NCBI GenBank assembly: GCA_029964075.1 | Contig: CM057148.1 | Location: forward strand, 30,807,916-30,871,915 | Source of the DNA: Patiria pectinifera | Lineage: Eukaryota; Echinodermata; Asteroidea; Valvatida; Asterinidae | Direction: 5' to 3' | Length of the DNA: 64,000 bases | In this document: positions 1,461 through 44,250 of the stretch, piece after piece | Layout of the letters: every line of letters begins with the position of its first letter | Numbering within the stretch: position 1 is the stretch's first letter | Notes under the pieces: model-generated | The model's database searches: none | What the model saw: only the letters and a program-made list of their open reading frames with translations | What the model was told of the DNA's origin: nothing | Translations under genes and position numbers: made by a program

Positions 1461-1769
1461 TCTCTTCCCCGCCTTGGAGTCATCGCCCCCGATGACTCAG
1501 GTCAAAAATGGCGGCGGCCTGACAGCGCCCAAAATAGAGTCGGGAGAGAACTGTTTTGAAAAAATGCACAGCATTTTCAACAACGAACTAGGAAGGTTAG
1601 AATAACACAACACAAATAAGTGTCCTCCAGATTAACTACTGAACACCATAATCCTCGGGCACACTCTAGAGTAATAGATGGAATAATAATACAGAAAAGT
1701 TACAATAACACAACACCAACAAGTGTCCTCCAGAGTAGCCACTCAAACACTATATTGTCTGAGCACATG

Positions 1770-4185: not shown

Positions 4186-4212
4186 AGAGTCGAAGGACAG
4201 ATCCCCAAGACA

Positions 4213-10163: not shown

Positions 10164-10329
10164 TTTAAAAGCTGCATTTTAGAGGAATTTCAATCGAAAA
10201 AAAATGTATTAATTAACTAGAGGACAAGGTTTTGTTAATCAAAAGATCACTGGCCTTTTAAGGCTAGTTATGAGTTAATGCATTGATAGTACTTGTATAT
10301 ACCCGTTCATATCCGCCGCGGATCGCCTC

Positions 10330-10411
10330 GTCGTCGCCTGTTATTATTATTATTATTGTCGTCGTCGTCGTCGTCGTCGTTGATGTTATTATTATTATTA
10401 TTATTATTAAA
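10330..10411. repeat. Compound trinucleotide microsatellite (ATT)n/(GTC)n
   Basis: A TTATTATTATTATT run, then about nine GTC repeats, then another ATT run. It lies exactly where the RNase H frame of G3 ends, so the microsatellite marks the 3' truncation of that element. Confidence 0.9.
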
Positions 10412-11519
10412 AGTGCGACATGGTCTGTTCTCAACGTCACTTTTCGGCCGTACAAATACTGCCGAAAGTGCTCAAGGTACACGACAACTGCTAACAACTC
10501 CCGTCGTGTCACGCAATAATTGCGTTCAGCCTTGCTCAGCTTACGGCTAGCGTAAGCTAGGACTTTTTCCTCTCCATCCTGTACTTGGGACAAGACCCCA
10601 CCTATGTCGTCTCCACTGGCATCTGTGTCCAAGAGAAAATCGCCCTCTGGAATTGGATAGGACAATATCGGGGCAGACCACCTGGCACCGTTCGCTCCTA
10701 ACAAACTTCCTAGCCTTCTCTGTAAGGGCGTGGAGCGGACTCGCAATTTCTGCGAAACCCTTGATGTACTTTCTGTAATAGGATGTGAGGCCCAAGAAAC
10801 TTCTCACATCCCTTACACATGGAGGGACTGGCCAATCGGCAACGGCTTGGACCTTCTTGGGGTCTGTTGCCACCCCGTCTGCTGAGACAATATGGCCCAA
10901 ATAACTCACTGACCGTTGAAATAAATGGCATTTGCTGGGCTTCAACTTGAGCCCAGCATCTCTCAACCTACCCAACACTATTCGGAGACGCTCTTGGGTC
11001 TCTCAACCGTTCGACCAAACACAATGATGTCGTCTAGGTAAATCAATAAGATTTCCCACTGCAGGCTCCTCATGACCTGCTCCATAAGGCGCTCAAACGT
11101 TGCTGGAGCGTTGCATAACCCAAAGGGCATGCACTTCCAGCGGTGAAGACCATTCCTCACCACAAAGGATGACTTCTGGCTGGCGTCTTCATCGAGAACT
11201 ACCTGCCAGTACTTTGACGCTAAATCTAAGGCACAGAACCATTTCGCCCCATGCAACACATCAAATGTCTCATCAATGCTTGGCACTTGATGGTGACAGC
11301 GTTAAGCTTCCGGTAGTCCACACAGATCCGCTTTGTCCCATCCTTCTTACCAACAAGGACAACGTTCGCAGCCGAGGGGCTGTCAGAAGGCTCTATGATG
11401 CCTCTCTCCTGGAGGTCAACAACTTGCCTCTGAATCTCCTCCTGGTAACTATATGGGTGACGCCTTGGCCGTTCCTTTATAGGCCTTGCTTCTCCGGTAT
11501 TGATGTGGTGTCGAACCAC
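10412..11519 (-). pseudogene. G3 reverse transcriptase and partial RNase H
   Basis: Spread over three frames. Frame 11519-11226 has [12 protein letters not shown]. Frame 11286-10978 has [29 protein letters not shown] and an intact catalytic IYLDDIIVF. Frame 10978-10547 carries the thumb ([15 protein letters not shown]). RNase H is visible in 10746-10412 with [15 protein letters not shown], ending at RTDH, where the microsatellite begins. Frame changes near 10,978, 10,710 and 11,270 make it non-functional. Confidence 0.83.
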
Positions 11520-11584
11520 ATCAGTCCGGCCAATGTCAAACTCACCCTTCGAGCGAAGACATCTTGAAATTCTCTCAAATACCC

Positions 11585-12693
11585 TTAGACCAACCCATGG
11601 TGTTCTACGTCAACGTTGGCTTTACACCATTCGAATAAATCGACTAAGTGTTTGGGTAACTCAGGCTCTGCGGCACAAGTAGCCACTTTGCCTACCTGAA
11701 TTGCACTCGACTCGACCGCGGAGATAACTCCTGCGGTAGTCCCCCTTCTAGCTGTCCTGGTCTCACGACCAGGATTAAAAACTCTCAGCGGGACGTACTC
11801 AGTCCCTGCTTCCACCAATGGTCGCCCTAGCGCTAAGCCTTTCGTGGCTAACTCGCCTCCTCCCTCAGGAGGTTCAACAATTGCTGGCCCAACCAGCCTG
11901 TGACATTTCTCAGCCACTACTCCGGGCACGACAGCTTCGTGACCAGACGGTATCTCTGTGGCCTCTGCAACCAACATTCTACCGATGAACGGTTCACCTC
12001 CACCATCGGTACATTGGATGTTTTCACCATTGAGCATCCACCTCTTGCTTCGGAAGTCCAAGTTCCCACCTGTAGTCAACAAAAAATCCATACCTAAGAT
12101 GCCAGCGCATCTTATCTTTGCAAAAAATGCCTTCACCGGGGAAATAGTACGACAAATCTGAATGTCTACCCATGCCACTCCCAGCACTCCCAGTGGTTTA
12201 CCATCAACCTGCTGGACGCTAACCTCATGTGCGAGCAAGGCAGGCCTTTGCTCTTCTTTTGGCATCTGGTAGTAGATCCTACTACTAATCAATGTATCAG
12301 TCGACCCAGTGTTTACTAAAATTCTGCATTTTGTCTTCCTGACAATTCCTTCCACAAATAAGCCATGCTTTTGGCTCTTGACCACACTAGGGCTCACAAT
12401 AAATCTCTTGTCGCAGCTTGTCGTCTGCAAACCATTTTCCCCACCAAGCTTGGGCCGCTTTACGGTTGAGAAGCCTTTGGAGTCTCCAGCCTGCCCGTGG
12501 GTCCTCCGTTTGGCTGGTCTCCGTTTCCTTGCTGGAACTTCGTTTCCTTGTGTGGCTGCTTGCAACTTCTTGCAAAATGGCCTTTCCCACCACAATTGAA
12601 ACACGTCAACAATTTGGGATCCTTAGGAGGTACCTGCACTGAGGCACTTCCCCTTTTACCCAAATCTGACAATCTGGCCAAGATGGCATCCAA
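11585..12693 (-). pseudogene. G3 zinc knuckle and protease region
   Basis: The frame at 12693-12460 contains a CCHC knuckle, CFNCGGKGHFARSC. The frame at 12604-11585 contains an aspartic protease-like segment, ILVNTGSTDTLIS (Asn at the position of the catalytic Asp), followed by GILGMDFLL. The knuckle and protease frames overlap and differ, consistent with a frameshifted gag-pol junction. Loss of the catalytic Asp suggests decay. Confidence 0.75.
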
Positions 12694-12710
12694 CTTCGAC
12701 TTTACCGACT

Positions 12711-13954
12711 TTACTCGACTTTACGAAAAGCCTCAGACTGTTCACCCACGGTGACTTCGAGTTTCCCAACTCGGTCATCGGTTGCTGAATCGAGAGCTCT
12801 GACTAACTTGACTGGCTTTCCCTCCAGTGCCCTCTGCCTCTCGACCTTCTCGTAATTCTCAGTCTCTAATGCGGCCTGTATGGCCATGTCCAAGTTCTTT
12901 GGACGCACCCTATGAATCTCTTCACGCACCGTCTGACTCATGACGGCATCGTGGAAATGATTCTTTGCAAGTCGATCTCGTGCGTCTTCCTTTAACTCAG
13001 GATATGCTTTACTGTAAGCTCACGCACTGCTTGCCCTAACTCTTGCAAGGACCCTTTCGGCCCTTGCCGACGATGTTGCAATTCGACTAAGTAATTTTCA
13101 GCCTGCAAGCCGGAATCAAACCTCCTCTTCAACAACTTCACCATTTCCGCATAACTATACTCATGCCCACCTGCGGATCCTTCTCCCAGTACTCTAAGAG
13201 CATTTCCCTGAAGGCTTGCAGCGAGGAATGTAGCAGCTTCCTCATCATCCCAGTGGTTAGCCTTCTTACAAGACTCAAAATGTCTGTGGTACTCTCTCCA
13301 TAATACCTTACCACTATACCTATCGGGAATGATGTTTGGAGGGTGCCGCTTCCGTCCCTACTGCTCCTTCAACACACTCTCATTACATACCCTTCGCACA
13401 CTTTTTAATGGCCAAGAGCCTACCGACGGGACAATATCCTTTCCCGATCGGTCAACACTATTGCCTACTCGGGTAGCAAAACTCATTAGTTCTGCCCTCA
13501 ACTTCTCAGGAGTCAAAACCTCCTGTCCCTCTGCAAAGGGATTATTCCGTGTCGAATCACTTCGACCTAATTTTATGTTACTCAGACCATCTTCTTTATA
13601 CGCACCAGGCATCTAAGCCACAGGCGTTTTACCCTCTACCGATAAGTCGAATGCAGGTTTCCCTAAAGGGTGTGCTCTCCCCAAAGCTCACCTCTTTCCT
13701 GCCCTCATGGACTACCTCCGGCGACATGGCCTCACATCATCGCCTTTGCCCTGAACGACTCATAGCCAATTTGCTTGGGACTCGAAACTCAATTTCCGGG
13801 TCAACCCGAATCCGACACCTCTCTAGCTCAGCCTCTTTTGCAGACTTTTCTAGCTGCAGCAACTGATTCTCCATCCGCAAGCGACTCATTCCTCTTCGAG
13901 TGACTGTACTTTGCTCTCACCTGGCGAGGCAACCGCACCACGCTGCCTGCTCAT
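12711..13954 (-). pseudogene. G3 Gag, broken into several frames
   Basis: A likely start ATG on the minus strand is at 13,954, but that frame closes after about 22 codons. Further pieces are at 13612-13358, about 13,290-12,960 (matching the helical retrotransposon gag domain, with FLAASLQGNALRVLGEGSAG and VKLLKRRFDSGLQAENYL) and 12941-12711. No single frame covers the protein. Confidence 0.65.
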
Positions 13955-14915: not shown

Positions 14916-15138
14916 TTATAGAACACTTTCGCCACAGAACATTGCATTCTCCGCTTCGCCCCACTCATTGACCATCGGCATACTCTCGAAGTGAATGAGG
15001 TAGTCGGCCCAAGAAGACGTGCCGTCGAACTGGTCTGGAAGCATCATCGGTCTCCTGACTGCACCAGCATTGTCTGCTCCCGCTCTTCCCTTTAGGGATC
15101 TTTCCAGTTGATCATGCTTTGCTCGCAGCCTGACATTC
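14916..15138 (-). pseudogene. Gag N-terminal fragment of another Gypsy element
   Basis: A short minus-strand frame with a likely coiled-coil segment (RAKHDQLERSLKG) followed by LPDQFDGTSSWADYLIHFES, the opening of the capsid-like region of Gypsy Gag proteins. It ends at a stop at 14,916, at the edge of the G3 LTR, which probably inserted into it. No other part of this element was identified. Confidence 0.6.
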
Positions 15139-15384
15139 CCTCAGCAGTAGCCGGTGGCACATGGTTGGATGGTGTTGTACGTGTCCATGCTTGCCCCTGC
15201 ATTTTGTCGGGATTTTGCACTCCATAGCGTAGTCCGGTTTCTGACTCTCTCCAGTGCAAAGGTTCGAGGGGATATGTGTTTCTGTTTTGTGTGGGAAGCG
15301 TCCTTTCCGGGTAATCTCGATCTGCATTACCGGGATCTGGACCTTTGGTCTATTTACATTGCAATTTGCCTGTCTTGTAAGGGT

Positions 15385-16812
15385 CCACATCGTTGATTTG
15401 TGCACGGCGGATCTTCTCTGCAAGGTAAGGATCTGTCTCATTAACTTGTGTACAGCGGATCCTCTGGGGGTGATCCTTCTCATAGGTGTGTGTGTAGCGG
15501 ATCCTCTCCGAATGGTGAGGATCCACCTCATTGGCTTGTGTACGGCGGATCCTCTGTGGGGGATCCGCCTCATTGGGGTGTGCACAGCGGATCCTCTCCG
15601 AGTGGTAAGGATTCGCCTCATTGGTTAGTGTACGGCTGATCCTATCCGAGTGGTAAGGATCCGTCTCATTGCCTTGTGTACGGCGGATCCTCGGGGGGGG
15701 GGGGATCCGCCTCATATGGTTGTGTACGCCGGATCCTCTTAGGACGCCGGATCCTCTCAGAGAGGTAAGGATCCGCCTTATTGGCTTGTGTACGGCGGAT
15801 CCTCTGTGGGGGGTCCACCTCATTGGGCTGTGCACAGCGGATCCTCTCCGAGTGGTAAAGATCCGCCTCATTGGTTAGTGTACGGCTGATCCTCTCCCAG
15901 TGGTAAGGATCCGCCTCATTGGGTTGTGCACAGCGGATCCTCTTCGAGTGGTAAGGATCCGCCTCATTGGTTTGTGTACGGCGGATCCTGGGGGGGGGGG
16001 GGATCCGCCTCATTGGATTGTGCACAGCGGAACCTCTCCGAGTGGTAAGGATCCGCCTCATTGGTTTGTGTACGGTGGATCCTCTGGGGGGGGGGATCTG
16101 CCTCATATGGTTGTGTACTGCGGATCCTCTCCGAGTGGTGAGGATCCGCCCCATCGGGTTGTGTCCAACGGATCCTCTGTGGGGGATCTGCCTCATTGGG
16201 TTGTGCCCAGTGGATCCCCTCCGAGTGGTAAGAATGCGCCTCATTGGTTTGTGGCACGGCGGATCTTCGGGGGGGGGGGGGATCCGCCTCATTGGGTTGT
16301 GCACAGCGGATCCTTTCCGTGTGGTAAGGATCCGCCTCATTGGCTTGTGTACGGCGGATCCTCTGGGGAAATTCGACGCATTGGTTTGAGCATGGCGGAT
16401 CCTCTGGGGGGGGGGGGGAGGATCCACCTCATTGGGTTGTGCACAGCGGATCTTCTCCGAGTGGTAAGGATCCGCCTCATTGGCTTGTGTACGGCGGATC
16501 CTCTGGGGAAATTCGACGCATTGGTTTGAGCATGGCGGATCCTCTGGGGGGGGGGGGGGGGATCCACCTCATTGGGTTGTGCACAGCGGATCTTCTCCGA
16601 GTGGTAAGGATCCGCCGGTTTGTGTACGGCGGATCCTCACCGAGTGGTCAGGATCCGTCTCTTTGGATTGTGCACAGCGGATCCTCTGGGTTGGATCCGC
16701 CGCATTTGGTTGTGCACAGCGGATTCTCTCCAAATGGTAAGGATCCGCCTCATTTGCTTGTGTACGGTGGATCCTCTGGGGGATCCACCTCATTGGGTTG
16801 TGTTTGGAGGCT
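15385..16812. repeat. GGATCC-rich minisatellite, units of about 48 bp
   Basis: About 30 degenerate units. A typical unit reads GGATCCGCCTCATTGGTTTG, then TGTACGGCGGATCCTCTCCG, then AGTGGTAA. Each unit contains an inverted repeat, GGATCCGCC facing GGCGGATCC, so every unit can fold as a hairpin. Alternate units replace the CTCCGAGTGG part with runs of 7-14 G. Higher-order pairs of about 90 bp are visible, and two blocks near 16,340-16,610 are almost identical. Long open frames exist on both strands (up to about 250 codons), as expected of a repeat without stops; I do not regard them as genes. Confidence 0.9.
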
Positions 16813-16824
16813 TACTTTTGGGCC

Positions 16825-17045
16825 ACACGGACCCGTCACGCAATCATATGTACTACCGTTCCCACCAAAATCGCGTGTATCCAGGTCATGTGTCCTGCCG
16901 TTCCCGCAAAAACCGCGCGGATCCCGGTCACGTGTGCCGCCGTTCCCGCAAAAACCGCTCGGGTGCAGGTCACGTGTGCCACTGTTCCCGCCAAAACCGC
17001 GCGGGTCAAGGTAACGTATACAACTGTTCCCGCCAAAACGAAGCG
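16825..17045. repeat. Second minisatellite, 42 bp unit, about five copies
   Basis: Units contain GTTCCCGCAAAAACCGCGCG followed by a GGTCACGTGTGCC segment, at a period of 42 bases. Outer copies diverge more than central ones. It directly adjoins the GGATCC array but shares no unit sequence with it. Confidence 0.8.
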
Positions 17046-19882
17046 GACAGGTTGTTCTGCTATGTACTGATCTGTGGATAGAGGGAAGTGGCGTACTCGT
17101 AGTAGTTTTCCGGTCCCTACTGTACATCAAAGTGGTTTCTCCCCGCGGGTATCCTTGGGTGGGAATTTCCAATTCCTGATCGACGGGCTCTCTAACTGGC
17201 TAGCAAACTATCTCCCTACGTGCCGACCATCATCAGGCCCCCACAGGTCACATTCCCACTCTTTTGCTGCCTTCCCGGGAGTAATTCCCCAGTAGACTGT
17301 GGAGTGTACGACAAAAATAATTGCAAATCATCAATCGTGATGTAAGAACCCAATGTCTCATCCGGTCGAGGGCAACTCGCTCCTACCGCGTCTCCGCCAT
17401 GTTTCCTACGTGTGACCATAACGCTGATCCTTCAAGCAATCAAGCAAAACACTTTCAAAAAAATACCTGATTTCCTGTCCTGACTGTGCCGCCGCTGCCA
17501 CCAGTGTAGCGTGTAGCCTAGGGGTTGTTTACCACACAGTCAAAAAGAACAAACACAGGTAATATTCCTTTGAAATGTGCTCTTTTATTCCACAGGACTT
17601 TACAGCAATACGAAAACATTTCTGAACTTTTGATCTCTCAACATGTGACTCACAAGTGGAAATTTCCACACCCCGACAAAAGCGTCCCTTGAACGAGTTT
17701 TACAGGGGCCCTGGTCCGCACCGTCGAAGGTGTATAGCGCCCTCAGTTGGCCGGTCGTCGCAGACGTTACATCACGATAAGCAAAAAAAATTGTCTTTTT
17801 CGAAAGTAGTGTCAGGTTGCAACATTTTTTTCTCAAAAGTAATTAAATTAGAGCGTCAAATAAACTGCAAGACATTAGGCAAGAAAAGTTACACAACCCT
17901 CTTCTAAAATTGATGTTTTTTGGCTCTGCCAATGACAAACGTGAATACCAATCAATAATACTCAACGCACATTTTGTACAATCGCACTGATACGCTGAAA
18001 ATAGATTAGTCAGTTCCCGATCGCAGCGCTTATTCAGCAACGGAAGTGATGTGTGGGAACATGACCCCAATCGGTGCAAAAAGTTCCCGGATAGCAAAAT
18101 TTGATGACGCTGTTCATCGAGTTCGGGAACTTTTGTCAGTGCGAAAAGTCGCCCCTAATCAAAGACAAAATTAAAGTAAATACTGATTTATTGGTTTGAA
18201 ACTTTCACAGATATGAGAAATGACAAGTTTTCAGTAACAATATAAGAGATAGGCCCTAGGCCAAGGCCCCTTTATACTGTATGTTGCATCAGATTTTTTT
18301 AATTAGTGCTCCTCAACACTATAAACACGCGAGTCGTCTGAACAAATATTGACAACACTGAAATTACAAGATAAACTGTTCAAAAATGACAAAAATAACT
18401 GTAATTGGAATTATGTGAAGTATACTTTAGGTTATAAAGGTCATTTTTGAACTGAAAAACACCCTTGACTCTAATATAATCGAAAATAAACAGGGACTAT
18501 ATCGATCGCCTAAAAAAAAAAATAGGCTAGCGTTCGTGCATAGGTTAGGCCTAACGTACATTTAATATACGTACGACTGTTACACCAAGATTATTCATAC
18601 AGAAGACGCGTTGAAAATTCGCTTACCGTTTTCTAAGAATCCATTCATCCCCCGAAGGGCAACAACTTAGTTGTTTGCCGATCGGCGGTGGTCACGCGGA
18701 CTGTCATGGGCATCCTCTCCGGTGGATGAGGCTAGATTAAATACCTTAAAATAAAATGCATTGATAGTTTACAAACAATGGCGTCCGTCCGCGCCCGGCT
18801 GCGATATTTTTTTTACACAATTATCTATGGTACTTTGTGCGCTTTCCTATGGGGCAAGGTTTTTTTTATAACTAGGCTTTTTTTTATAACTAGGCTTAAG
18901 TGGAGGCTTCTATTTTTCAACTTGGTACGGATTTCAGACTTTATTTCCCTTTAAAAAAAAAAATCCTCCAGAGCCTCGGATCAGAAAAGAAAAAAAAATT
19001 GCTGCTTTACAAGTAGTATCCGACTGAAAAATAACGTTTTTAAGAAAAAACTTAAAATTGTTGAAAAAAAAAGAGCAAAATCTGAATTAGCAGAGCAAGG
19101 AATCGAACACGGGGATCTCGCTAGGCAATGGCGGTGCTCGACCAAATTTTGCATTTCATAAATTATATACTTTCGCACATGTGGAGAGAGTATACACGCG
19201 AGTAAGGGCGCGCGCGCGTAAGGGCGCGCGCGCGTAGGTAAAAGGCTACAGGATTGTAGAGCGCCGCTACGCGACGCTCTACAATCCTATAACCTTGATT
19301 CAAGTCGTCTGAAAAATGGGTACCCTGTACTATTATGTAAATAAAATATTCGCCGCCCGGCCCGCGCGCGAATCACGCGTGTACGTTATATCCCATAATA
19401 CTTGTACTCACAAAGGTGATGCCGTCCAATCAGATTGCTGGATTTTCAACATGCGCACATTTTGTTATCTTTTAACACCAGCACTAAACTAACACCAAGT
19501 TATTCGAGTTTCTGCTTGCACATTTAAATGAATTGGTGTTATTTTAACACCATGGGAATCACCCAAACCTTTACACCAGTTCAGTGTCAGCAATTTAACA
19601 CCAGAGTTTTTGCAGTGTAAGAATGTCGGATGCCGAAGAGCTCGTGGTTTTGAATATATAAAGAAAAAATGAAGACTTGTTGGCCCGTCGATGAATTTAG
19701 AATGATTTCATATAAAGGTGCGAGGCTCTATTACAAAAATATCGGCAATTATTGATAAAAGGCGACGACGAAGCGATCCGTGACAGCGTGAACTTCCACT
19801 GAAACAAGAAAAACAAAATGAAAACCTATATGGAAACAGCGGTGGTAAATGAACAAGGGGGTTAACTATAAAGCACCACCGA
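17046..19882. other. Intergenic stretch without recognised gene
   Basis: No convincing coding exon was found. Notable items: AATAAA on the minus strand near 17,584-17,589; poly-A/T runs at 18,510, 18,850-19,080; a tRNA-like piece near 19,090-19,145 on the minus strand (CCGTGTTCGATTCC resembles a B box, with GGTCGAGCACCGCC upstream), probably a SINE remnant; a GGGCGCGCGCGCGTA direct repeat at 19,206-19,236; a hairpin with arms AGGATTGTAGAGCG at 19,250-19,290; and repeated TTAACACCA words at 19,470-19,610 ending in a CTGCAAAAAC-type terminus (minus strand), likely the end of a DNA transposon. Confidence 0.4.
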
Positions 19883-20519: not shown

Positions 20520-20640
20520 ATGAAACATACAATAGATTTCTACAGACATCTGAGATTTGGTGTTATGTATTTGTTAATAGCAACTGCTATCTTCGCAATC
20601 AGCCTGTGTGCTGCATATGACATATGTCCTCTAGGCACTG
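20520..20640 (+). CDS. Receptor exon 1: signal peptide
   Basis: Two in-frame ATGs (20,520 and 20,565). The second directly precedes a hydrophobic core, YLLIATAIFAISLCAAY, typical of a secretory signal, with a likely cleavage after CAA. The exon ends with a G in phase 1 at a consensus donor GTAAGT (20,641). The frame is open upstream to about 20,430 without other evidence of coding. The inverted dead copy at 9,148-9,765 conserves mainly this exon. Confidence 0.78.
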
Positions 20641-23600
20641 GTAAGTTACAGTCGGACATGCCATGGACCTTGTTCGATAAACCTTTCATTTAACAGTATC
20701 TCTTGAAAAGAACAAGTGTTTTGAGGGAATACTGAAGTATCACATTTTGTCTTACGATATGCTTATCTTAAAATGGTTCTATGAGAAAAATAAATTGAAA
20801 GTTTCAAATAGAATATACTGATGTACCACTCAATGTATTGCTTTTGTTTCAGTAGAGATTATTCACGATACATTTGGCCAGACTACAAGTACAGCACGTG
20901 TACAGAGCGGGCTTTGGCACAGAGTTTCCTGTCCATCGCTCCGCGAAGGTGACAGCATAGTGGGAGTTGTTTGGTACAAAGGAAATTCACTGGAGGATCC
21001 TTCAAAACGACAACTTATAAGTCACTCCAATGGTGTAGACTATCCCTCGAGCGACAGATATGCAACGTCATCAGGTTCCAGCCTCGTGATTAAAGGTGTC
21101 AGTGAATCGGATGAAGGGAAGTACATTTGTCGTGTCATAACACATGGAACTGCCAATACATTAGGAAAAATCGTCCTGGAAGTTCTCGGTAAGTCTACAA
21201 AATACTCCAACCTGAATCCAACGCTTTAGCAGATGACATTATTTGCTAAAAAAAACCCACAAATAAATGACATGTGACATTCAATCTCACAGTGAAACTG
21301 AATAGGTTCATTATACATGTATCAGGTTTTGTTTCAATTGTCAATCCCGATGTTGGCGGAAGGGGCGTTATAGTCAGACGCCATTATCCGTATGTGCCAT
21401 ATAACCTGGGAGCACGCCAATGCTAGCAACATCAGCAATGCTGCAAACCTGAGAAATAGCAAAATTGGGATAACTCAGTTGGTCTAACAACGGAACGACA
21501 ATCAGACTGTTTTTTGACAGACTGCCTTTGTTAATAAAAAATGCAAAATTTGTGTTGCTTTATATGTTTTGTATTCAGGAGATTCTTTTCCGGCCAGAAC
21601 CAAGTACACATCGTCCACTGCCAGATTGCAGCGAGATGGCAGACAGACGCTACCGTGTCAGTGCGCGCCACTGACACCAAACGCAATATCCGTAGTGTAT
21701 TGGTCAATGGGAGAAGGCATAACTGAAGATACAGAGATCATTGGTGCACGTTTTGCTGATGGTGCTACACTACAGTTCCGAAATGGCGTTGATTACAGCA
21801 TTGATAGCGACGGGACACTCACAGTTAATTCTGTCAGTGCTTTGCATGATGCAGCGAGGTTCTGGTGTCATGTATTTCAGTTGGACGGATCACAGACTGA
21901 CTGCTACATAAATGTACACGTATCAGGTATTGTGTTTTATTCTTGAACGTCTTAAATCGTCGCGTCAGTGCAACACGGTCGTAACTCGATTCTAACTCGA
22001 AATATGAATACCATAATTGGTAACTGTTTATTTTCCGTAGTCCCGCTCATCGCCAATTATTATGAACGTCTCATTCGCAACGTGATCAAGAGCTACCTAT
22101 TCCATATGCCTGCGCATATTACATCAAACATTAATTGTGTCATCTTTGCTCACGTAATCCAGGTGATACTCCATTGCTTGGTCCTCTCAGGGCATCAGCA
22201 GCATCATTCTACCTGCTGCAGGGAAGGAGGCAGATGATTCCTTGTACAACTTGGACACTTGGCAATGCAACATGTTTGGTGCAATGGTTTAAAGTTGATA
22301 TCTCTAGCCACCATCTCCTCATCAATTACACGGTGTCCTCTAGTACCGTTCTTGCTGATCCATCGTTTGACCTTGCTCTTGACTTCGGTCTGGTAATCAA
22401 GTCCGTTGATGAGGATGACGGTGGGAACTACAGCTGCTCTGCAAACCCTGAAGCCAATGAAGGGCTTGTCGAAGTCCGTGTCATCGGTAAATTACTTTTT
22501 TCTTTTTTGTTGGGGTAATTTTTGTTCCGCCCGCTCATTTGACTTTAGAGCATCGACTTTAGAGCATAACATTGTTGGTATCCTCGACAATTTTGTGTGT
22601 ACGTTTTTCTTGTTCTTCTTCAAGTAAGTGTCAATGTATACAAGTTTGGTCATTGTTAGCGAAATATTTTTGAAACAACTGGGTTGTCTCTATTTTTTTT
22701 TTACACAGGAGATACGTTTCCGTTGGATGGAAGAAGCGCAACTAAAGGAGACGTCATAGCATTTGAATCTGATAGCAAATTTACACTGCACTGCCCAGCC
22801 ATGGAAGGTGTACCTATAGGTAGCAGAACCACGTTGATTTGGTCATTCGGTGCTGTTGATGCACAACTGACCACTGTGGTTGGCAAGCTAGATCTACCGG
22901 CTGGCTCCAAATGGCTGTCTGACATAGACGGCCACACCTGCTTCGGCTTAACAATTGAAGGTTCTCTCCTTCTAACGAACTGCTCTCAAAATAGTGCAGT
23001 CAGATTCTGGTGTCATGTGTTTCCCCATGTCGAAGCGTTACGAAGGTCCTACGTGGATGTAGTAATGAGAGGTAATATATCGTCATTTGTGGTATGAGAA
23101 CATTGTTTACATGAACAAAATTCTGTTTATCTGGTCCATGAAGTGATGAAGTTAAGTATCAAAAGAAGGAAGTTATCAGATAATGGCCATCTGATACGTC
23201 CAGAAGTATAGATATTGTTTTCTTAACATCCACAGTTCACACGTGCCTACGTTACATACGTAGTGTGGACATTCCTTTGTTTTCGTGTAGTTAAGAAAAA
23301 AAAGAAGAAAAAAACGAACATTTTATTGACACTTTGAAAACACTTTTAACCCAACTTGTTTTATTTGATTCCCTTTAGTGTTTCTCTTTATTTTTCAACG
23401 GTTAAACCTAACCCTAAAATGCCTCTAAATCTGTTTTCCACTGTGTGGGCGTGGGCAAGTCCACACCCAGTACCACCTGAATTATTTGGACCTCTTTTGG
23501 TCGGAAGTCCGCACAGTGAATGCAATGCTTGTTCACATAACTCACACACACACTCTATCGAAGTGTTTTCTGGGAAGGATGAAAACTAAAATTTTACGAG

Positions 23601-26600
23601 CTGTATTCATTTCTCGTTTACTTTTACAGATTCCATCAAGCCTTCTAACATTGGTCTCATAGCTGCACTTGTCTCTATGTTTGCACTTGTTGTCGTTGCT
23701 ATCACTGTGTGTTTGACGTGGAAGCTACGCAAACGGAATCCACCTCACGATCGGGAACGAGTTGTTTACCGCCCAATTCCTAAAGCAGGTATGTGACATT
23801 CAAACGTGTGGGTTTTTTTTTCCGTGGGTGTAATCATACAGTTTTAATTTTTACTGGACTGTACGTCGTTCATTTTGCTTTATTAAATGTGTTTATCACC
23901 CAAATTAACAATCGAGTCATGCAAGTCTCTTAAACTTTAGGTTTATCCGGTCATTTTCTTTTACAGGCATAGATAAATTATGTGCACCAAACGAGAGTAT
24001 ACATTTTGACATTCAAATTGATTGCGTAAATGTAAATTGTCTTTTACGTTTCTTACAGAACCTGCACGACAATTTAGCGTGACTACGCTCGCTACGATGA
24101 TCCGGGAGTTTGTGTCGGAGAGAATGAACAGACTGCCCATCACGCCTTGGGTGACAGGTGATGACAGCTACGCAGCGATGGATGAGGTATACACACCACT
24201 GGAAATGTACCTCAATGTGAATATAGCAGGTTGTAAAGCTAGATACAAAATAGAGTCAGAGTCTGAAATCTTTGATGACGGTATCTCTGAATTGTCGAGT
24301 TGTCATGTACTCCTTGAAGGTAGTTCAGGTTGTGGTAAAACTGCCTTCTTAAGCAAAATGGCATCTGACTGGTCACTGGAAAAGCCACACGCAGTATTCG
24401 GTAAGAAAAAGATGGTCTTTGTTCTGCCGGCGAAAATTCTCTTAAAAACTCGGAATGTGGGGCAAGCTGTTGGTCAATATATGCTTAAAGGTGGCACGAA
24501 GCATTGGGCAAATTCGATCAATGAATACTGTTCAAAGCACGCTGACGAAGTGGCCATTCTTGTTGATGGCTGCAATGACACACACGACATAGATAATGTC
24601 ATGGAGATCATGACGGAACAATGTCTTATGGGGAGTCAAATAGTGATAAGTGCAAGACATACACAGATGGTGGAAGAAACAAGCAAACGTCATAAACTGC
24701 GCCACATAACGATTACTGGGTTCACGCAAGAAAGTGCAAAGGCGTACGTTGATTGCCACTTTGATGCACTCAATCGCTTAACTACTAACAGCCAGACTCA
24801 AAATGAGACAATTCACGTCTCTTCACAGATTGACGAAACACAAGAACACAAAGAAAAAGATGATACAAATTTAAAAAGAAGTTGTTACCAATCTGAGAAC
24901 GGCTGTGAAAATCAAAGTCAAAGATCTCATTTGCTCACTCACAGCTACTTGGATGCAAACATTCTACACCCAAATGTGGCTTGTCTTCCCGTTATCATAG
25001 CGACTCTTTGTCAGTTATCCTCTTGGACTGATGGGTTGGCTATTCAAGATGATCCTACTATGGGCGACTTGTTTATTAGGTTGGTGAAAAGTCTGTTTGA
25101 GAGAAGCAGTGACAGAGGCAATGACGATACCAAAACACATGAGGCTTTGAACAAACATGTAGATTTTGATGATGTAACAGGCCTATCAAAAGTACAGCTT
25201 GAAATATTGAGAAACCTAGGAGATGTATTTCTGCCGAAGATGTTTGAAAACGAAAGTCAAGCTACATTTTCCAAAGCAAAATTCCTGAATTCGTGTAATA
25301 ACAGTCAGACAATCTTAGACGTGGCAATTAAAATTGGTCTTGTGCGTTACGAAGGAGATGCAGTTGTTTACTTTGTCCTTGAAATACTTCAAAACTTCTG
25401 CACTGGTCTTTCCCTGGCTCATACTGCTGAAAAAAATGCAAACTGGATACCTGAACTTCAGCACACTGATTGGATGAGTGCAGCTGACACGTTTTCAAAT
25501 GTATGTGCGTTTGCCTGTAGGAAGAGTCAAACGGTTTGTAGTGGACTTGTGCAAAAGATAGCAGACCGGAAAAAGAAAGAAGCAACCAATGTCATTGGTA
25601 TTCAAACGATGACACAGTTGTGTCTTCTGCTGAATTTTGAAGGAAAATGCAAAGGTTCGTTGAATGACAAGTTTGCCGGCATCTTTGAGGGAGGGAAAGT
25701 TCGTCTCGGAGGCGTTTCTGGTCACACGATCAGAATGCTGTCGTATTTGTTCAAACATGCAGACAAACAGATAGAAGGTGTTGCTTTGTGCGTTGAATCC
25801 GTTGAGTTGTTGCGACTTGAGAAAGTTGACTGGGGAGAGTTTCGGGAATACTTTGAGTACTTTTTCCCATTGACTCTGGAAGAGGACATCCAGAAAACTG
25901 AACAGATGCAAAGGTGTTCAGAGAATGGGATACTGGCAAAGTTGCGTGAAAGAGTAAAGTCCAGAAACAAAGACATGCCTCAGTTTTCCTCAGACCAGTC
26001 AGACATCAGGGTCCTTCGTACTGTGCAGTCGTTGGGTCTTTATGAGCTTCTGGAGGGTCAGGCAGGTGAATTGCACAAACTGGGAGAAAAGCAACCATTT
26101 CCTGTAAGCCAGCCTGATCAAACTGCACACTCTACAATGTCGCAGCCAAGGTTTCAGGGGTCGGGCTCTGAAATTCAAGGTTCGGTTTGTAAAACCAATC
26201 CCAATTCTAGTGAAAGTCACCAAACAAGTGCATCAAGCGAGTTAGTTGGATGCCTGTCGTTTCTACCGAAGCTTGAAAACCTCGTTCTTGTGGGGACAAT
26301 TTTCAGTTCAAATGATGTCTGCAACTTTGTATGTGAACCTGAAAATGCCCCGAAGTTGAAAAGGCTAGATCTGCGTCTGAATAAGCAGTTTGATGATGAT
26401 GCGTTCTGCGCAGTTGCAAAATCGCTTGAGCAACGCTCTAGAAGAAGCAAATTTAGTAACATGGCAGACCTCCGATTGTCTTTGTATGGAGTAACTCTTG
26501 AAGGGTTTATTAGCGTACAGCAGAACACCGACAGTGATGGAGCCATTGCCTGGTCTCATTTAGAAACTCTCTATCTACTGCATGGTGAGATTCCAGAGGA

Positions 26601-26763
26601 ATTCTGTGATTTCCTCAAACAAAGCGTGAAAAAGAAAATACCATTCTCGATTAGAGAAGATAGAAAGCCGTACACTGAGATACTATATGGTAAAGGAATG
26701 CAAATGCTGGAGCCCCCTTTGTGTGGACTTCACAAAGATGAGCAAGGCGAGCCCTCAAATTAG
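20520..26763 (+). CDS. Membrane receptor: signal peptide, four Ig-like domains, TM helix, NACHT, LRR-like tail
   Basis: Join of 20520-20640, 20853-21188, 21579-21926, 22163-22486, 22709-23071, 23630-23788 and 24059-26763: 1,451 codons plus stop, all introns GT-AG and all six in phase 1. Residues 1-40 are the signal-peptide exon, 41-497 four Ig-like domains (one per exon), 505-528 a hydrophobic helix followed by a basic stop-transfer (KLRKR), and 551-1451 the cytoplasmic region. The latter has DEVYTPLE (about 592), Walker A GSSGCGKT (638-645) and Walker B ILVDG (Asp about 720), which together identify a NACHT NTPase, then a long helical region and two or three LRR-like stretches. Expected role (inferred): surface recognition coupled to NACHT oligomerisation inside the cell. 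No death, CARD or TIR domain was seen. Family NLRs are normally cytosolic, so the architecture is unusual. An alternative start is the ATG at 20,565, still before the signal peptide. Confidence 0.85.
20853..21188 (+). CDS. Receptor exon 2: Ig-like domain 1
   Basis: Acceptor TTTTGTTTCAG, donor GTAAGT. The domain has Cys67 (RVSCPSL), Trp81 (VVWYKG) and Cys133 in the classical strand F motif DEGKYIC, so the intradomain disulphide and core Trp are present. 112 codons, phase 1-1. Confidence 0.85.
21579..21926 (+). CDS. Receptor exon 3: Ig-like domain 2 (RFWCHVF type)
   Basis: Acceptor TTTGTATTCAG, donor GTATTG (weaker). It opens with GDSFPA, has CQC at 179-181, core Trp194 (VVYWSMG) and a strand F motif ARFWCHVFQ with Cys249. 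An extra Cys (TDCY) near the C-terminal end could form a second bond. This motif recurs in exon 5. Confidence 0.83.
22163..22486 (+). CDS. Receptor exon 4: Ig-like domain 3
   Basis: Acceptor TAATCCAG, donor GTAAAT. It opens GDTPLLG, with Cys296 (MIPCTT) and Trp310 (VQWFKV), and a strand F motif DDGGNYSC. It resembles domain 1 in its strand F rather than domains 2 and 4. 108 codons, phase 1-1. Confidence 0.82.
22709..23071 (+). CDS. Receptor exon 5: Ig-like domain 4 (RFWCHVF type)
   Basis: Acceptor TTTTTTACACAG, donor GTAATA. It opens GDTFPLDG (compare GDSFPA of domain 2), has Cys405 (TLHCPAM), Trp in TLIWSFG and the strand F motif VRFWCHVF. It repeats domain 2, so domains 1-4 form an A-B-A-B arrangement. 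Confidence 0.83.
23630..23788 (+). CDS. Receptor exon 6: transmembrane helix and juxtamembrane segment
   Basis: Acceptor CTTTTACAG, donor GTATGT. A 24-residue hydrophobic stretch (IGLIAALVSMFALVVVAITV and on) is followed by the basic KLRKRNPPHDRER, which predicts type I topology with the exon 7 product in the cytosol. The tail contains one Tyr (VVYRPI). Confidence 0.85.
24059..26763 (+). CDS. Receptor exon 7: NACHT NTPase and LRR-like C-terminus
   Basis: A single 2,705-base exon. It starts after TTTCTTACAG and runs to TAG at 26,761. Walker A is LLEGSSGCGKTAFL; Walker B is AILVDGCND; a sensor-like GSQIVISARH follows about 25-35 residues later. This order matches the NACHT branch of STAND NTPases. 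A polar, low-complexity insert (about 24,795-24,940) interrupts the region after NACHT. The last 200 residues contain leucine-patterned segments (LENLVLVGTIFSS, LKRLDLRLNKQFDDDAF, LETLYLL) like degenerate ribonuclease-inhibitor-type LRRs. No introns in 900 codons, unlike the ectodomain. Confidence 0.85.
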
Positions 26764-27105
26764 AATCCCTTCCCAGACCATTCGGGGTTGAGCCCGCCCA
26801 GTACGTTGGAGGGATTGGGGACCTTGCATGGAACCGATCGGCCTGGATTAACTCTACCAGGCTTCTGCGCCATGGCTCTGGCTCATCACAAAGGAACCGA
26901 TTTACGACGCGCTAATCCTCCAGTGGTCAACAATGACTGTGAGCTTCAAAGAATTTGCCGCAGGTAATCCCGCATACCATTACCTTTATGCACTAATACG
27001 ACGTTTACTGTACTTTAATAATTGTGAACCTGATGGCTTTTTTTTAACCAATGACATCCAAAAGATGCGCCCTCCATTGAAAATAAAGAAATGACTTGTT
27101 GTTTA
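26764..27105 (+). terminator. Receptor 3' UTR and polyadenylation signal
   Basis: AATAAA at 27,082-27,087 lies about 320 bases after the stop codon and is followed by a GT-rich stretch (ACTTGTTGTTT). It is the first canonical signal downstream in the sense orientation. Confidence 0.65.
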
Positions 27106-29687: not shown

Positions 29688-29966
29688 TTAATCGATGCAG
29701 TTCTGATACACATATCTTACCACCAACGAGTTTTTTCTGTTACTGATGTCCTTTGATTTGTCAACCATGACGGATAACTGTTTCGAGTTTGACAACTCAC
29801 GACTGATTTCTTCTTGAACCATCTTGGCCGTCAGTTCTATAATCCCGTTTTGAATTATAGAATCAAGGTACTTCACCCTGTTGGGACCTTCCAAATGGTT
29901 TGTTATAAACTTGTTCTGTTCACTGAGTAGCACAAGAATTTCCATCAAGTTGCCACCCCTTTGCAA
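29688..29966 (-). pseudogene. hAT-superfamily transposase-like fragment (DUF4371 / ZMYM1-like)
   Basis: A 92-codon minus-strand frame with NLMEILVLLSEQNKF, HLEGPNRVKYLDSIIQN, MVQEEISRELSNSKQLSVMV and SLVVRYVYQN. This pattern is typical of the start of the catalytic region in hAT-like DUF4371 proteins (family recognised from memory). No zinc finger, dimerisation region or terminal repeats are present, so it is a fragment. Confidence 0.65.
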
Positions 29967-30776
29967 CTTCTACCTGTTGCCTGTGTCCACGCTGCCCAAT
30001 TGAGTTGCAGTTTCACGGAGACTTTGGCAATCTGCCTTTATGTAGTGTTTGTTTTCTGAAATTGCTTTTTTTGGGCAACAGACACGACGGCAACATCAAT
30101 GGTTGCAAAGCCTCTTTTTAGACACACTTCATCCCGTTGTGGTATTCACTTTTCCGAATGATGTTTAGTTATTAAAATCAGAAGGGTATAAGGGGATTTA
30201 CATGATAACATGAATCAAAACACGCATGCATGCTGAAGTAAATTACGGTCACTTTGCGGCTACATAAATATCACCAACAGCTATTCTTGCTTAGATGTGC
30301 CATATTTTAACAATAATGTACTGTACACTGGAAGTAAACGATTGTAGTTTCAATATGTTAGTATTTATGACATGTATGTCATTCGTAATGAGAACATGGA
30401 AGAATCGGGGTTTAAGTCGATATATATATACTAGACGGATATATACTATCTTCTAAGTTTTCAGAAAGTGCCATCAAGCGAACTTTTAAAATATCCTTCG
30501 CCGTTTAACAACTAATACGTAATGTTTGTACTGTATTGAGCAAATACGTACCTGTATGTATATAACAAGTCTTTTAAGTTTAAGACGACAACGCAAGCAT
30601 ATTAAAACTGATACAGAGCTCACAAACTTATATTTAGAAATTAAGAAGGACTAAATATGTCGTAGAATAAGTTTTAGTTTTAGTTTTAGTGAGGTTAAGA
30701 AATACACGTTCGCAATTGGCGTTGCGAATTAACTATTGCTAAAACATGTATCTTAAAGGTACATGCAACTAGCTCT
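29967..30776. other. AT-rich spacer, no gene seen
   Basis: It contains a short (TA)n run near 30,420-30,450, a TTTTAGTTTTAG repeat near 30,670 and otherwise no recognisable feature on either strand. Confidence 0.4.
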
Positions 30777-37276: not shown

Positions 37277-37591
37277 ATTTATTCTGTCAACCACCCGTCT
37301 CCCTTACGGGTGTAACATTTTGGAGGCACGAGAGGGATGGGCGTATCCTTTCCCATCCTAAACCTGACGGAAAGGATGCCAGCGCTCATCCAGTGATATG
37401 ACCCCGACCCCGTCCACGAACCGATGACCCCAACCCAGTAGAGAGCAACTGGCAGTAGACGACGGTGAGCGACCTGACGCACCATTTGAAGCCTGAGTGA
37501 GTGGAGGAAGCCCAGAGTCTCACGTCACTGAGGGACAAAGTGGTGGTCGAGGTGCGGAATTCGGATCTACTGCTGGAGAACATCTGCTGTA

Positions 37592-38869
37592 ATGGAGGCC
37601 ATTTTCAAAGCGCACCAAGAGGTCCTGGAAAGTTTAAGCAAACTTTCCAGGGAGGAGCTGAGGAAGGTCCAGACGCACCTCGAGATGATATGGAAGGAGG
37701 AGGACAGCCAGCTCCGCCTCCTTCGCAAGATCACAGCGTATCTGTCAAGTGAAGAAGTGGGATGATCGGATGACGAGGGCTTGGCAGTCCTCCTGCAGCT
37801 TGCCAGGTTTATCAAGGAGCACGTGATGGAGCCAGCAGCAGTGGAGGCAGTTGTGACAACAGCGGCTGCAACAAACTCAACGGAAGGGACGGCTGCCAGC
37901 ACCGGAAAGGGAACCCAACACACCCTAGACTCCAAGATATCTGGTCTTCTTCGGAGAGAATTCAAGATTGCTGGACATATTGGCGAGCCAGGCCAAAAGG
38001 ACCGTTTGACCTTCTCCAGTCTGGCGAACCAAATCGAGACAGGGCGAGAGAAGGGCTACCCTGACCGGGATATTGTCCAAGGAGTCATCCGCGCTATTGT
38101 CCCTGGGTCACCCCTACGAAGCTACCTTGAGGGGAGGAGCAAGATTACACTTCCCAGCCTTCGGCAGATTGTGAGATCTCACTACCAGGAGCGAGATGCA
38201 ACCGACCTATACAAGCAACTATCCCAGTTGGCCCAAGAACCCAAGGAAACACCCCAAGCATTTCTTGTACGTGCATTTGACCTCCGACAGAAGGTGATCT
38301 TTGCCAGCTAGGAGGCTGACTCCAAGCTGCGGTACGAGCCGAGTTTAGTTCAGGAGATGTTCAGACACAGCATCTTAACTGGCCTAAGAAGTGATGCCAT
38401 CAAGACAGAACTCCGACCATACCTAGACGACCCTGAGACATCGGATGAGGCACTCTTTGAAAAAATTTACGTCTACGCCAGTCTAGAGGCAGAGAGGCGG
38501 AAGAAGCTCAATGCAGGGAGGCCAAGTACGGTCAATGAGGTGACGATGGAGACGGTGCCCAAAGAAAAAGAAAAACCAAAGCCAGGCCTACTAATGACCG
38601 AGATTGCTGCACTACGAGCGGGAATTGAAGAGCTAGCTCCCTTGAAAACCCAGGTAGCCGCCCTGCAGCAGCAGTCCCGATCCAGTATGCAAAGACAGAG
38701 CCAGCCTCGTCTGCGTCGAACCTGTGATCAGTGCACCAAGGATGGCCAGGAAATCTGCAACCACTATTTTCACTGTGGGTCTGCTGAACATTTTACCAAA
38801 GGGTGCCGACAGAGGAAGCCAAAGCATCAGGGAAAGGGCCAAGGGTTGCCCCCACGGGACAGGGAGTAA
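37592..38869 (+). pseudogene. G2 Gag region, interrupted
   Basis: The first piece (37,592-37,765) starts MEAIFKAHQEVLESL and looks like an amphipathic coiled coil. The frame then changes. The second piece (37,781-38,311) contains the gag helices (PGSPLRSYLEGRSKITLPSL, KQLSQLAQEPKETPQAFL) and ends at a TAG. The third (38,357-38,869) continues FRHSILTGLRSDAI and ends with a Cys/His cluster, CDQCTKDGQEICNHYFHCGS, then HFTKGC, an atypical zinc knuckle in which one CCHC cysteine is not in the standard place. Confidence 0.78.
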
Positions 38870-41123
38870 CCAAAACGACAGTGTCCCAGTCACCCTCACA
38901 GTCTCCCTCCCAGTCCAAGTATCCCCCATCCTCGAAGGATTTCTTTGTTTGTCATGTCAGTCCAAAGAAGCACTACAAAATCACAAGACTGATAGGACGA
39001 AGATGTACTGTTGATTGTCTCCTCAATGAGGTGCCAGCAACAGTACTGTGGGATACTGGTGCACAGGTGTCCATGTTAAGTTCTGCGTGGGTTGACCAAA
39101 ACTTACCAGAAACCCCTTTCCGTCCCATTTCTGAGCTACTGGACTGCGATGAGAAATTAGACCTGCAAGCAGCCAATGGAACCCCTATCCCCTTCGATGG
39201 ATGGATAGATGTCCAGCTAAAATTGACAGCACCAGAAGGAAGGCCGAAGAAAGTATCCTTTCCTGCCTTAATCACCAAAGGCCAATTACAGCAACCAATC
39301 ATCGGGTACAATGTTATCGAGGAAATTGTGAGGAGTCCAGGAGAAGACCCAAGTAACGTCCTTGGTAAAGCAGTTCGGAGTCTTGGCCGCCACCAAGTAG
39401 CCAGCCTAGTCCAACTAATCCAATCCAACGACTCCGATGACCTCTGTAATGTTGTATCGGGTAGGCAGGATGTCGTCATTCCACCACAGAGTAATGTAGG
39501 CATCCGCTGCCATGTTCATGCTGGTCCAGTGCACCATAAGATGGCAGTTCTCTTTGAACCTGATGTTCGCTCCCAGTGGTCAGAGGGCTTGCAAGTTGAA
39601 GAATCTGTCGTTACTCTGTCTCGCGGGAAGTCTTGCCCTGTGACCATCAGAGTAACAAATCCCACTGACCGCACCGTCGTCCTCAAGCATCGAACACCAC
39701 TTGGTCAACTGCAACTGGTCCAATCAGTCACCCCCCTATGTCTCTCAACCCAAGATAAGTGGAAAAGAGTACCCCAGCAAAACACCACAATAAATGCAGT
39801 TCTTGACACTGACGTCTCTCTTCATGACTCATGGATACCCCCTGTCGATCTGAGCCATTTGTCTCCACCCCAGAAAGCTGCTGTAGAAAAGCTGCTCCAT
39901 GAAGAGTCTGCAGCCTTTGCTAGAGATGGAGATTACATGGGACGCATTGATCATCTGCAGATGAGTATAAAGTTGAGTGACGACCAACCTGTGCAAAAGA
40001 CATACACTTCTGTTCCACGCCCCTTGTTCCAGGAGGTACGAAACTACTTGTCTGATCTCATTGCTCGAGGGTGGATAACAAAGTCAAGCTCAGCATACTC
40101 CTCACCCATCGTCTGCGTCCGTAAAAAAGATGGCACCTTGCGGCTGTGTGTAGACTACCGTGAGCTTAATCGTAAGACAGTACCTAACCGCGAACCCATA
40201 CCACGCATCAGAGATGTTTTGGATATCCTTGGAGGAAATTCCTGGTTTTCGACCCTCGATCAAGGGAAGGCCTATCACCAAGGGTTCATGTCAGCGGACA
40301 GTCGCCATCTGACAGCGTTTGTCACGCCTTGGGGACTCTATGAGTGGGTACGGATACCCTTTGGTCTAACTAACGCACCTGCGGTGTTCCAAAGGTTTAT
40401 GGAAACCTGTCTGGAGGATTTGAATGGTGACATCGCAACATCGCAATGACATACTTGGATGATGTGCTGGTTTTCAGCAATACCTTCCAGGTTCATATCG
40501 ACAATCTCCGCAAGGTTTTGAGGCGTCTTAAAGAACATGGAGTCAAGCTGTAACCTTCCAAGTGCGAGTTATTCCAGAAGGAAGTACGGTATCTTGGTAG
40601 GCTAGTGTCCTCAGAAGGACATCGGATGGATTCAGCTGATGTCGCAGCAGTAAAGACGCTCAGCGAGAAGAGGCCAGCCACTGTGGGGGAAGTTCGAAAA
40701 TTGCTTGGTCTACTTGGTTATTACCGAAGTTACATTCAAGACTTCTCCCGTAAAGCAAAGCCTCTTTATGACCTTCTCTCCACACAACCAGATGGGCAGC
40801 CAAACAAAGTACCGCCCAATGCCAAGACTGCGAAGACAAGAAAACCAATTCCAAAGAGTAAGGCAGGACAGATGTCATCTAGACAGAAGGTTGAATGGAC
40901 GGACCAACATCAGGAGGTGCTGGAGAAGTTACTCGATGTTTTAATGGCTCCACCAATCATGGCATTTCCTGACCATGATCAACCTTTCATAGTCCACACG
41001 GATGCGTCCAACGAAGGCCTTGGTGCGGTACTCTACCAAAAGCTGAATGGCAAGATGCGAGTAATTGCATATGGTTCACGTACCCTCAGTCCCGCCGAAC
41101 GCAACTACAACCTTCACTCCTAG
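38803..41123 (+). pseudogene. G2 protease, reverse transcriptase and RNase H start
   Basis: The frame 38,803-40,449 has the aspartic protease motif VLWDTGAQVSMLS, a later IIGYNVI, and RT motifs RLCVDYRELNRKT, WFSTLDQGKAYHQ and PFGLTNAPAVFQRFM. It closes at 40,449 at a local duplication (ACATCGCAACATCGCAATGA). The catalytic MTYLDDVLVF sits in another frame just after. A further TAA is at about 40,552. The thumb and RNase H ([30 protein letters not shown]) run from 40,605 to a TAG at 41,121. Confidence 0.85.
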
Positions 41124-43553: not shown

Positions 43554-44250
43554 CAAGTCTTTAGCTGCAGCAAAATATCCTGTGGTGGCACATCAACGAA
43601 GGTGCACCTGTACTGTTGGCGTTGTTTTATTCTAGACGGAAGGTAGATGTAGATGTTAACCAGGAAATAGCCAGCGGAAGAGAAATCACTGTACAGTGTC
43701 AGGGAAGGGACTGTCTTACCAGCAATGAGTACCTTCAGGGGAACGTCCAGTCATGTAGGGCTCTGACGAGGGTATTGGCAGTACATCAGATAGGCCGCTG
43801 GGCTAATCCAAAAGCGAATTCAGCGTTCTTACAGGACAACAGTTCAAGTTCACTTCCTTCATGATCTTCCTTAGATCAGGATGACGTCGAGAACTTATGG
43901 AAATAGCTACTCCATCTGCCTCATTAGTCTCCAAGTGGTCACTTCGATGGGAAACAACCATCTTAGCTGAACGAGTGAGCAGAGAAGCTCCTAGAGTGGA
44001 ATGAGCTGTACTTTGCTGAATGAACGGAATATTGATACGTGTAGTAGTAAATGTTGGGACAACATTTTATTTTGAAGGGGAGAGTGTATTTGACGTTTGT
44101 ATTACTTTATTGGTCATCCGTAATCAGGCATACTTAGGTAAAACCGTTCTTGTATCATAAAGGTTAATGAATTACCGACCACGTTTTGCAACCTGGCCAC
44201 GTTTTGCAATCTTTCAGTCAATAATTATACTTGCCCATTAGCTGACAACA

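Follow-up and report, generated by a model that had tools for sequence, protein, structure and literature searches.

NLR engines are usually regarded as cytosolic, and the locus examined here raises the question of whether one has been placed beneath an extracellular immunoglobulin (Ig) ectodomain in a single membrane protein. The gene in question lies within a 64,000-nucleotide stretch of the Patiria pectinifera genome, hereafter the window (C20:30807916-30871915, C20 being contig CM057148.1 of a 613.5-Mb assembly). The first-pass annotation, made from the letters alone, had proposed seven exons in one consistent phase that encode a signal peptide, four Ig domains, a transmembrane (TM) helix with a basic stop-transfer, a NACHT module and a leucine-rich repeat (LRR)-like tail. 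Full reading upheld the exon ends and the junction between exons 6 and 7: the seven plus-strand exons form one open reading of 1,451 amino acids, and all six introns are GT-AG and in phase 1. Exon 1 (20520-20640; all features described are on the plus strand) contains the start codon and the predicted signal peptide. Exons 2 to 5 encode Ig1, the outermost Ig domain, of V-set type with Cys67 and Cys133 (20853-21188), Ig2 (21579-21926), Ig3 (22163-22486) and Ig4 (22709-23071). Exon 6 (23630-23788) carries the stalk, the TM helix (23656-23721) and the stop-transfer, and is separated by the 270-bp intron 6 (23789-24058; GT-AG, phase 1) from exon 7 (24059-26763, stop codon included), which holds the predicted cytoplasmic NLR module in a single exon and accounts for nearly the entire cytoplasmic part. 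The profile comparison that the annotation had suggested for the Ig and NACHT parts gave Pfam matches to V-set (E 4.8e-16, three stretches), together with Ig_3, ig, I-set and Ig_2, and to NACHT at residues 634-786 (E 6.1e-12).

Hydropathy analysis identified two strong hydrophobic segments, the signal peptide at about residues 13-32 (up to 2.27) and residues 507-528 (up to 2.86), in agreement with the annotated signal peptide and TM helix. The signal peptide is flanked by a charge of +2 on its N side and -3 on its C side, while KLRKRN follows residues 507-528 and the charge after this helix is +6. The flanking charges of both segments thus predict that the Ig domains lie outside and the NACHT domain inside, and every Ig domain retains at least two cysteines. 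Unlike an NLR in the usual sense, the protein is therefore predicted by hydropathy and charge to be non-cytosolic, and the annotated layout with Ig recognition outside and the NACHT and LRR-like parts inside is supported as a prediction. A third, weaker segment at residues 852-870 (24967-25017, HPNVACLPVIIATLCQL; peak 1.66) follows the NACHT domain. It is a helix in the structural model, and we read this borderline case as an HD1-like helix rather than a TM helix.

Within exon 7 the NACHT domain (PF05729, 24307-24765) was recognised by Pfam and by a fold match to NOD2 and NLRC4. It contains GSSGCGKT (24319-24342) and ILVDG (24556-24570), both as annotated, and VISAR (24643-24657), which we take to be the Walker A, Walker B and sensor-1-like motifs, respectively. 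Pfam detected NACHT in all 20 aligned relatives. Among the 13 genes aligned over this exon, the window gene has GSSGCGKT and the other 12 rows GRSGCGKT; Walker B reads ILVDGCND in 11. The domain is followed by a polar insert of variable length (24766-24957), largely missing in three of the 13. NLRs usually carry His at a winged-helix position that is Leu in all 13 rows (FVLEI, 25372-25386). A phmmer search of the PDB with exon 7 alone returned no match at E 0.1; a family profile did match and was closest to NAIP (E 1.6e-5), NLRP9 and NLRC4. The AlphaFold model of exon 7 was poor overall, with a predicted local distance difference test (pLDDT) score of 49. In Foldseek, 29 of its 41 best matches were titled as NLR, with NOD2 at the top (E 1.9e-8), at TM-scores of only 0.15-0.29; the remaining 12 were unnamed chains of oocyte-lattice or subcortical maternal complex (SCMC) structures, which contain NLRPs. 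A 480-residue fragment was modelled better (pLDDT 63.5, NACHT core mostly 80-95) and matched NOD2 and NLRC4 at E ~1e-11 with a TM-score of ~0.4.

The C-terminal tail (26230-26727) consists of about four irregular repeats. In the exon 7 model these adopt a beta-alpha repeat fold (pLDDT ~80), and ranks 42-50 of the Foldseek matches were LRR proteins (E 0.02-0.07). Pfam matches to LRRs were weak, with three families each found in one of the 20 relatives (E 0.026-0.094). The annotated tail thus stands as LRR-like by its modelled fold, within a whole-exon model of pLDDT 49. A Pfam scan of the whole protein at E up to 1 showed only Ig families and NACHT, and hence no death-fold or BIR effector domain and no TIR domain.

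To call this a single gene requires that exons 6 and 7 belong together, and we compared the window gene with 14 paralogues (close set; 14 of the 15 genes on C20 and one on C14; exon 7 identity ~70-100%). All 15 have Ig exons upstream of exon 7 in the same orientation, GT after the TM exon and AG before the NACHT exon, whose start at residue 551 does not vary. This exon is broken in two of them (G3119 and G3213). Two genes of other subfamilies that are 35-40% identical in exon 7 (L072 of B and L073 of C) have the order Ig1, Ig2, Ig3, Ig4, TM, NACHT, with splice signals seen at most exon ends, and a TM exon precedes NACHT in all eight B loci examined.

This arrangement recurs across the genome. 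The searches scored best candidates only (76 of 564 for the ectodomain, 51 of 429 for exon 7, 49 of 620 in a further search for exon 7 relatives and 150 of 249 for Ig4), so that all counts are lower bounds; split matches were merged into exons and subfamilies A to D assigned by hand. At least 67 exon 7 relatives were found (A, 15; B, 33; C, 15; D, 4), 66 of them on the 33-Mb contig C20. An initial pairing, based on the ectodomain search, placed Ig exons upstream of 15/15 A, 9/19 B and 4/15 C exons. A later pairing, which used 96 Ig4-like exons obtained with a B-type Ig4 query, gave higher figures: 15/15 A, 30/33 B, 14/15 C and 4/4 D exons, 63 of 67 in total, are preceded by an Ig4 of the same strand no more than 16 kb away, leaving four NACHT exons without Ig4 at this distance. 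For 61 of the 67 the distance is at most 5.5 kb, with none downstream and none on the opposite strand; two additional pairs at 10 and 13 kb may be false. When Ig4 places were shifted by up to 300 kb in 500 rounds, the mean was 3.85 and the maximum 11. As a further control, the family search gave 101 NACHT matches, 18 of them conventional NACHTs on contigs that also carry Ig4 matches, and none of these 18 has an Ig4 upstream within 16 kb. With 61 of the 67 NACHT exons preceded by an Ig4 at 5.5 kb or less, this genome holds about 60 Ig-NACHT genes, the window gene among them. Conversely, 34 of the 96 Ig4-like exons could not be paired with any listed NACHT exon; examples lie at C19 11.7-13.1 Mb, C6 15.8-15.95 Mb and C21 33.52 Mb, and five go with ApoL-like frames described below.

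TM exons from 25 NACHT-type genes of groups A to C were examined. All 25 (15 A, 9 B, 1 C) contain a juxtamembrane YxxPhi motif, which in exon 6 of the window gene is VVYRPI (23761-23778); the motif is missing from an ApoL-type gene, L076. An immunoreceptor tyrosine-based inhibitory motif (ITIM) would suit subfamily A, with V at position -2, but G takes that place in C and in most B rows, and YxxPhi is the safer label.

Selection and variation were assessed in the close set, using exons free of internal stops for codon counts. The NACHT set excludes the two genes with a broken exon, and the Ig2, Ig3 and Ig4 alignments each comprise 13 of the 15 genes because stretches were missing or matches incomplete. 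Mean ratios of non-synonymous to synonymous divergence (dN/dS) were 0.64, 0.42, 0.58 and 0.39 for Ig1 to Ig4, 0.62 for TM, 0.35 for NACHT, 0.45 for winged helix/HD2 and 0.58 for the LRR tail. Pairs with dN>dS numbered 3/105 in Ig1, 1/78 in both Ig2 and Ig4, none of 78 in either NACHT or winged helix/HD2, and 9/78 in the LRR tail. Mean column entropy, gaps counted, was 0.66 in Ig1 versus 0.25-0.37 in Ig2-4. Within Ig1, descriptive pN/pS ratios for loops delimited post hoc from the alignment were 0.96 in BC, 1.77 in C'-D and 0.77 in FG versus 0.52 in the rest of the domain. Ig1 is thus the most variable Ig domain, at three loop positions that resemble complementarity-determining regions (CDRs). 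Pairwise distances in 12 genes further showed that Ig1 barely tracks other exons (r 0.08-0.18), while Ig2, Ig4 and TM track NACHT (r 0.53-0.55). Other exon pairs were also weakly correlated (Ig3-Ig4 r 0.12, Ig3-TM 0.18, Ig2-TM 0.24), so that this weakness is strongest for Ig1 yet not exclusive to it. One paralogue (G2693, C20:26934100-26935800; L071, L029) apparently has two tandem Ig1-like exons.

Taken together, we consider it probable that the product of the window gene is a type I receptor of the AjNLRC4 kind that crosses the membrane once, with Ig domains outside and an NLR engine inside. AjNLRC4 of the sea cucumber Apostichopus japonicus (MN607598) is described with Ig outside, TM at 483-503 and NACHT at 600-757; it was located in the coelomocyte membrane, its Ig domains bind microbes, it promotes Vibrio phagocytosis via beta-actin, and its knock-down reduced phagocytosis (PMC8699970). 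It was later tied to caspase-1 and MLKL cleavage (PMC11932488). By analogy, the role of the window protein is best read as that of a phagocytic or pattern-recognition receptor. Its Ig part would bind a ligand, probably a microbial surface, with the outermost V-set Ig1 as the likely contact. Binding would cluster the receptor in the membrane; clustered NACHT modules might then associate with one another and bring in actin and/or caspase machinery, with the YxxPhi motif possibly assisting internalisation. The cytosolic engine would comprise NACHT, winged helix and LRR-like tail and has no recognisable death-fold domain. Phagocytosis or lytic defence would be the presumed outcome.

Several observations weigh against this interpretation. 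Residues 852-870, at a hydropathy of 1.66, could pass as a TM helix. The dN/dS of whole Ig1 is below 1, and dN exceeds dS in 18/105 TM pairs and 11/78 Ig3 pairs. Nucleotide switching may differ from that of other NLRs because of unusual residues in the winged helix and in Walker B. Kinship with AjNLRC4 was judged by architecture and spacing, its published primers being too short for a comparison, and AjNLRC4 is reported without LRR and with a second TM at 776-795, whereas the window gene has an LRR-like tail and, in our reading, one TM. Moreover, the Ig part of AjNLRC4 was reported to bind caspase-1 after internalisation, which is hard to reconcile with an ectodomain (PMC11932488), and a second A. 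japonicus protein, AjNLR-new, is described with NACHT outside and Ig inside (PMC13133943).

This last description raises the possibility of an inverted topology in the window protein as well. The proposal for AjNLR-new draws on a recombinant NACHT fragment that bound the surface and on a TMHMM prediction (PMC13133943). In the window protein, by contrast, the first hydrophobic segment has the position and charges (+2, -3) of a signal peptide and the TM helix is followed by +6, cysteines are kept in each Ig domain, and a NACHT NTPase is generally expected to need cytosolic nucleotide. A signal peptide misread as a TM helix would yield precisely such an inversion, and we regard an inverted window protein as highly improbable. 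Even less credence is due to two neighbouring genes, one for an Ig-TM receptor that stops at the end of exon 6 and another for a NACHT-LRR protein that starts in exon 7, or to such products coexisting as isoforms. Retention of intron 6 would give an immediate in-frame stop (KAGM*), the intron contains ATTAAA, and exon 7 has an internal Met. Against this, the junction with its GT and AG is kept throughout the close set, one locus in each of two other subfamilies shares the exon order, intron 6 is just 270 bp long, 61 of the 67 NACHT exons are paired with an upstream Ig4, and the first Met of the exon 7 frame falls within the first helix of the module. Two adjacent genes were rejected on the paralogue and pairing evidence; the fused gene proposed by the first-pass annotation is supported, and an artefactual fusion of exons 6 and 7 is very unlikely.

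The window copy might alternatively be a relic, a non-expressed pseudogene amid retroelements. Retroelement frames do flank the gene on both sides, and the NACHT exon is broken in two of the close genes; however, the window copy has an intact frame across seven exons with all splice signals present, and mean dN/dS in the close family is below 1, which leaves this alternative improbable. A receptor for cell-cell or allorecognition, whose variable Ig1 recognises polymorphic ligands of self or kin instead of microbes, deserves more weight and is unlikely rather than remote. The large clustered family, the variability of Ig1 and the near independence of its distances from those of other exons would all suit such a function. 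Pathogen receptors are equally expected to expand in the germline, however, and the nearest characterised relative, AjNLRC4, is reported to bind microbes (PMC8699970).

A front resembling the Ig-TM part of the receptor seems to occur with another intracellular part as well. Five NACHT-less Ig4 exons at C20 9.90-10.03 Mb are each followed, on their own strand, by an ApoL-like frame 2.4, 2.3, 19.5, 3.3 and 2.5 kb away. At one of these loci (L076, C20:9899500-9906500, positions 1190-5079) an Ig-TM gene runs into a helical exon and ApoL (PF05461, E 3.9e-9), and by eye the phases match from Ig4 through TM and the helical exon to ApoL (1, 1, 1 and 0). A second, candidate locus (L077, C20:10008450-10012850) has the same exon order. 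At L075 (C19:12205500-12212500) an ApoL match with a stop lies ~11 kb past Ig4. There were 20 ApoL matches in all, most of the others without a tie to an Ig gene. A literature search for Ig joined to ApoL gave no relevant paper, as judged by title and abstract. Two different intracellular parts, NACHT and ApoL, thus seem to share a similar Ig-TM front. One may go further and see about 60 germline-diversified receptors on one chromosome, built on a four-Ig and TM chassis with phase-1 coupling to an NLR part or a membrane-acting ApoL part and an outermost V domain that varies most, in three CDR-like loops, as a system of modular recognition with interchangeable effectors, in which recognition by the V domain at the surface would be linked directly to an NLR-type or pore-type output. 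We advance this only tentatively, as somewhat short of an even chance. Its probability is lowered because exon mixing is not peculiar to Ig1 and because fragmentation or stops affect two of the five ApoL frames next to Ig4. Ig1 variation and the ApoL sister genes suggest an invertebrate receptor repertoire in which outputs could be exchanged.

Around the gene, AATAAA at 27082-27087, ~320 bp past the stop codon, is a candidate poly(A) signal identified by its motif only. Retroelement stretches, presumably Gypsy-like, occupy 1700-7000 (-), 10264-13357 (-), 37500-43600 (+) and 48279-48803 (-) of the window; the scan of these stretches, extended to 29691-29969, took in nine frames, and five gave integrase, reverse transcriptase or zinc-knuckle matches. 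Positions 15100-17200 are repetitive, with long open frames of GSSGGGDPPH type on both strands, perhaps a minisatellite. Elsewhere in the genome, a match to bindin, an echinoderm protein (PF02084, E 1e-33), was found at C11:9439569-9439766 (L074), whereas a search of the assembly for COX1 gave no match.

The first-pass annotation had put the gene forward as the best candidate in the window for an undescribed immune or allorecognition system. That it is undescribed was not borne out, as published accounts describe Ig-TM-NACHT proteins in A. japonicus (PMC8699970, PMC13133943) and V-set NLRs in Chiridota heheva (PMC8913654); the layout itself is already known from sea cucumber. Like AjNLRC4, the window gene encodes an N-terminal Ig ectodomain, a TM helix and then NACHT in one chain, at similar spacing (TM 507-528 against 483-503, NACHT 634-786 against 600-757). 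AjNLRC4 is reported with two Ig domains and the window gene has four Ig exons; the window protein also has an LRR-like tail and, in our reading, a single TM, with the borderline hydrophobic residues 852-870 after NACHT. The published lack of LRR and the second TM of AjNLRC4 rest on SMART. In the P. pectinifera family the post-NACHT helix can come close behind NACHT because three paralogues are largely without the insert, and the reported second TM of AjNLRC4 would lie at about the position of this helix.

AjNLR-new (PIK48001.1, 1,197 aa), linked to phagocytosis, has two TM helices around its Ig part (PMC13133943). It shares Ig, TM and NACHT in a single protein with the window gene and differs in its two TM helices and its extracellular NACHT, as described. 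The window gene would resemble it if its signal peptide were taken for a TM helix, and the published topologies, including the second TM of AjNLRC4, may stem from signal peptides or post-NACHT helices called as TM. The accounts of AjNLRC4 and AjNLR-new treat each protein singly and disagree on topology, while the anatomy of the family described here argues for one orientation. In C. heheva, another sea cucumber, at least one of six NLRs "with other domains" has an Ig V-set, which its authors did not find in sea-urchin NLRs (PMC8913654); the likeness is NACHT joined to a V-set, in passages that describe neither a membrane layout nor a family. Two further papers (PMC9646362, PMC11797021) gave nothing of use on other Ig-NACHT proteins. 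As far as literature searches show, the size and clustering of the family, the LRR-like tail, the conserved YxxPhi motif, the Ig1 variation and the ApoL sister genes are new.

Vertebrate NLRC4, NAIP, NOD2 and the NLRPs match exon 7 by profile and fold, yet they are cytosolic, carry other N-terminal domains and no ectodomain, and usually have a winged-helix His in place of the Leu seen here. Toll-like receptors signal through a cytoplasmic TIR domain, for which the Pfam scan (E up to 1) gave no match in the window protein. An NLR engine under an Ig ectodomain in a large family makes it possible to test whether assembly of NACHT can be driven from outside the cell, as happens in Toll-like and antigen receptors.

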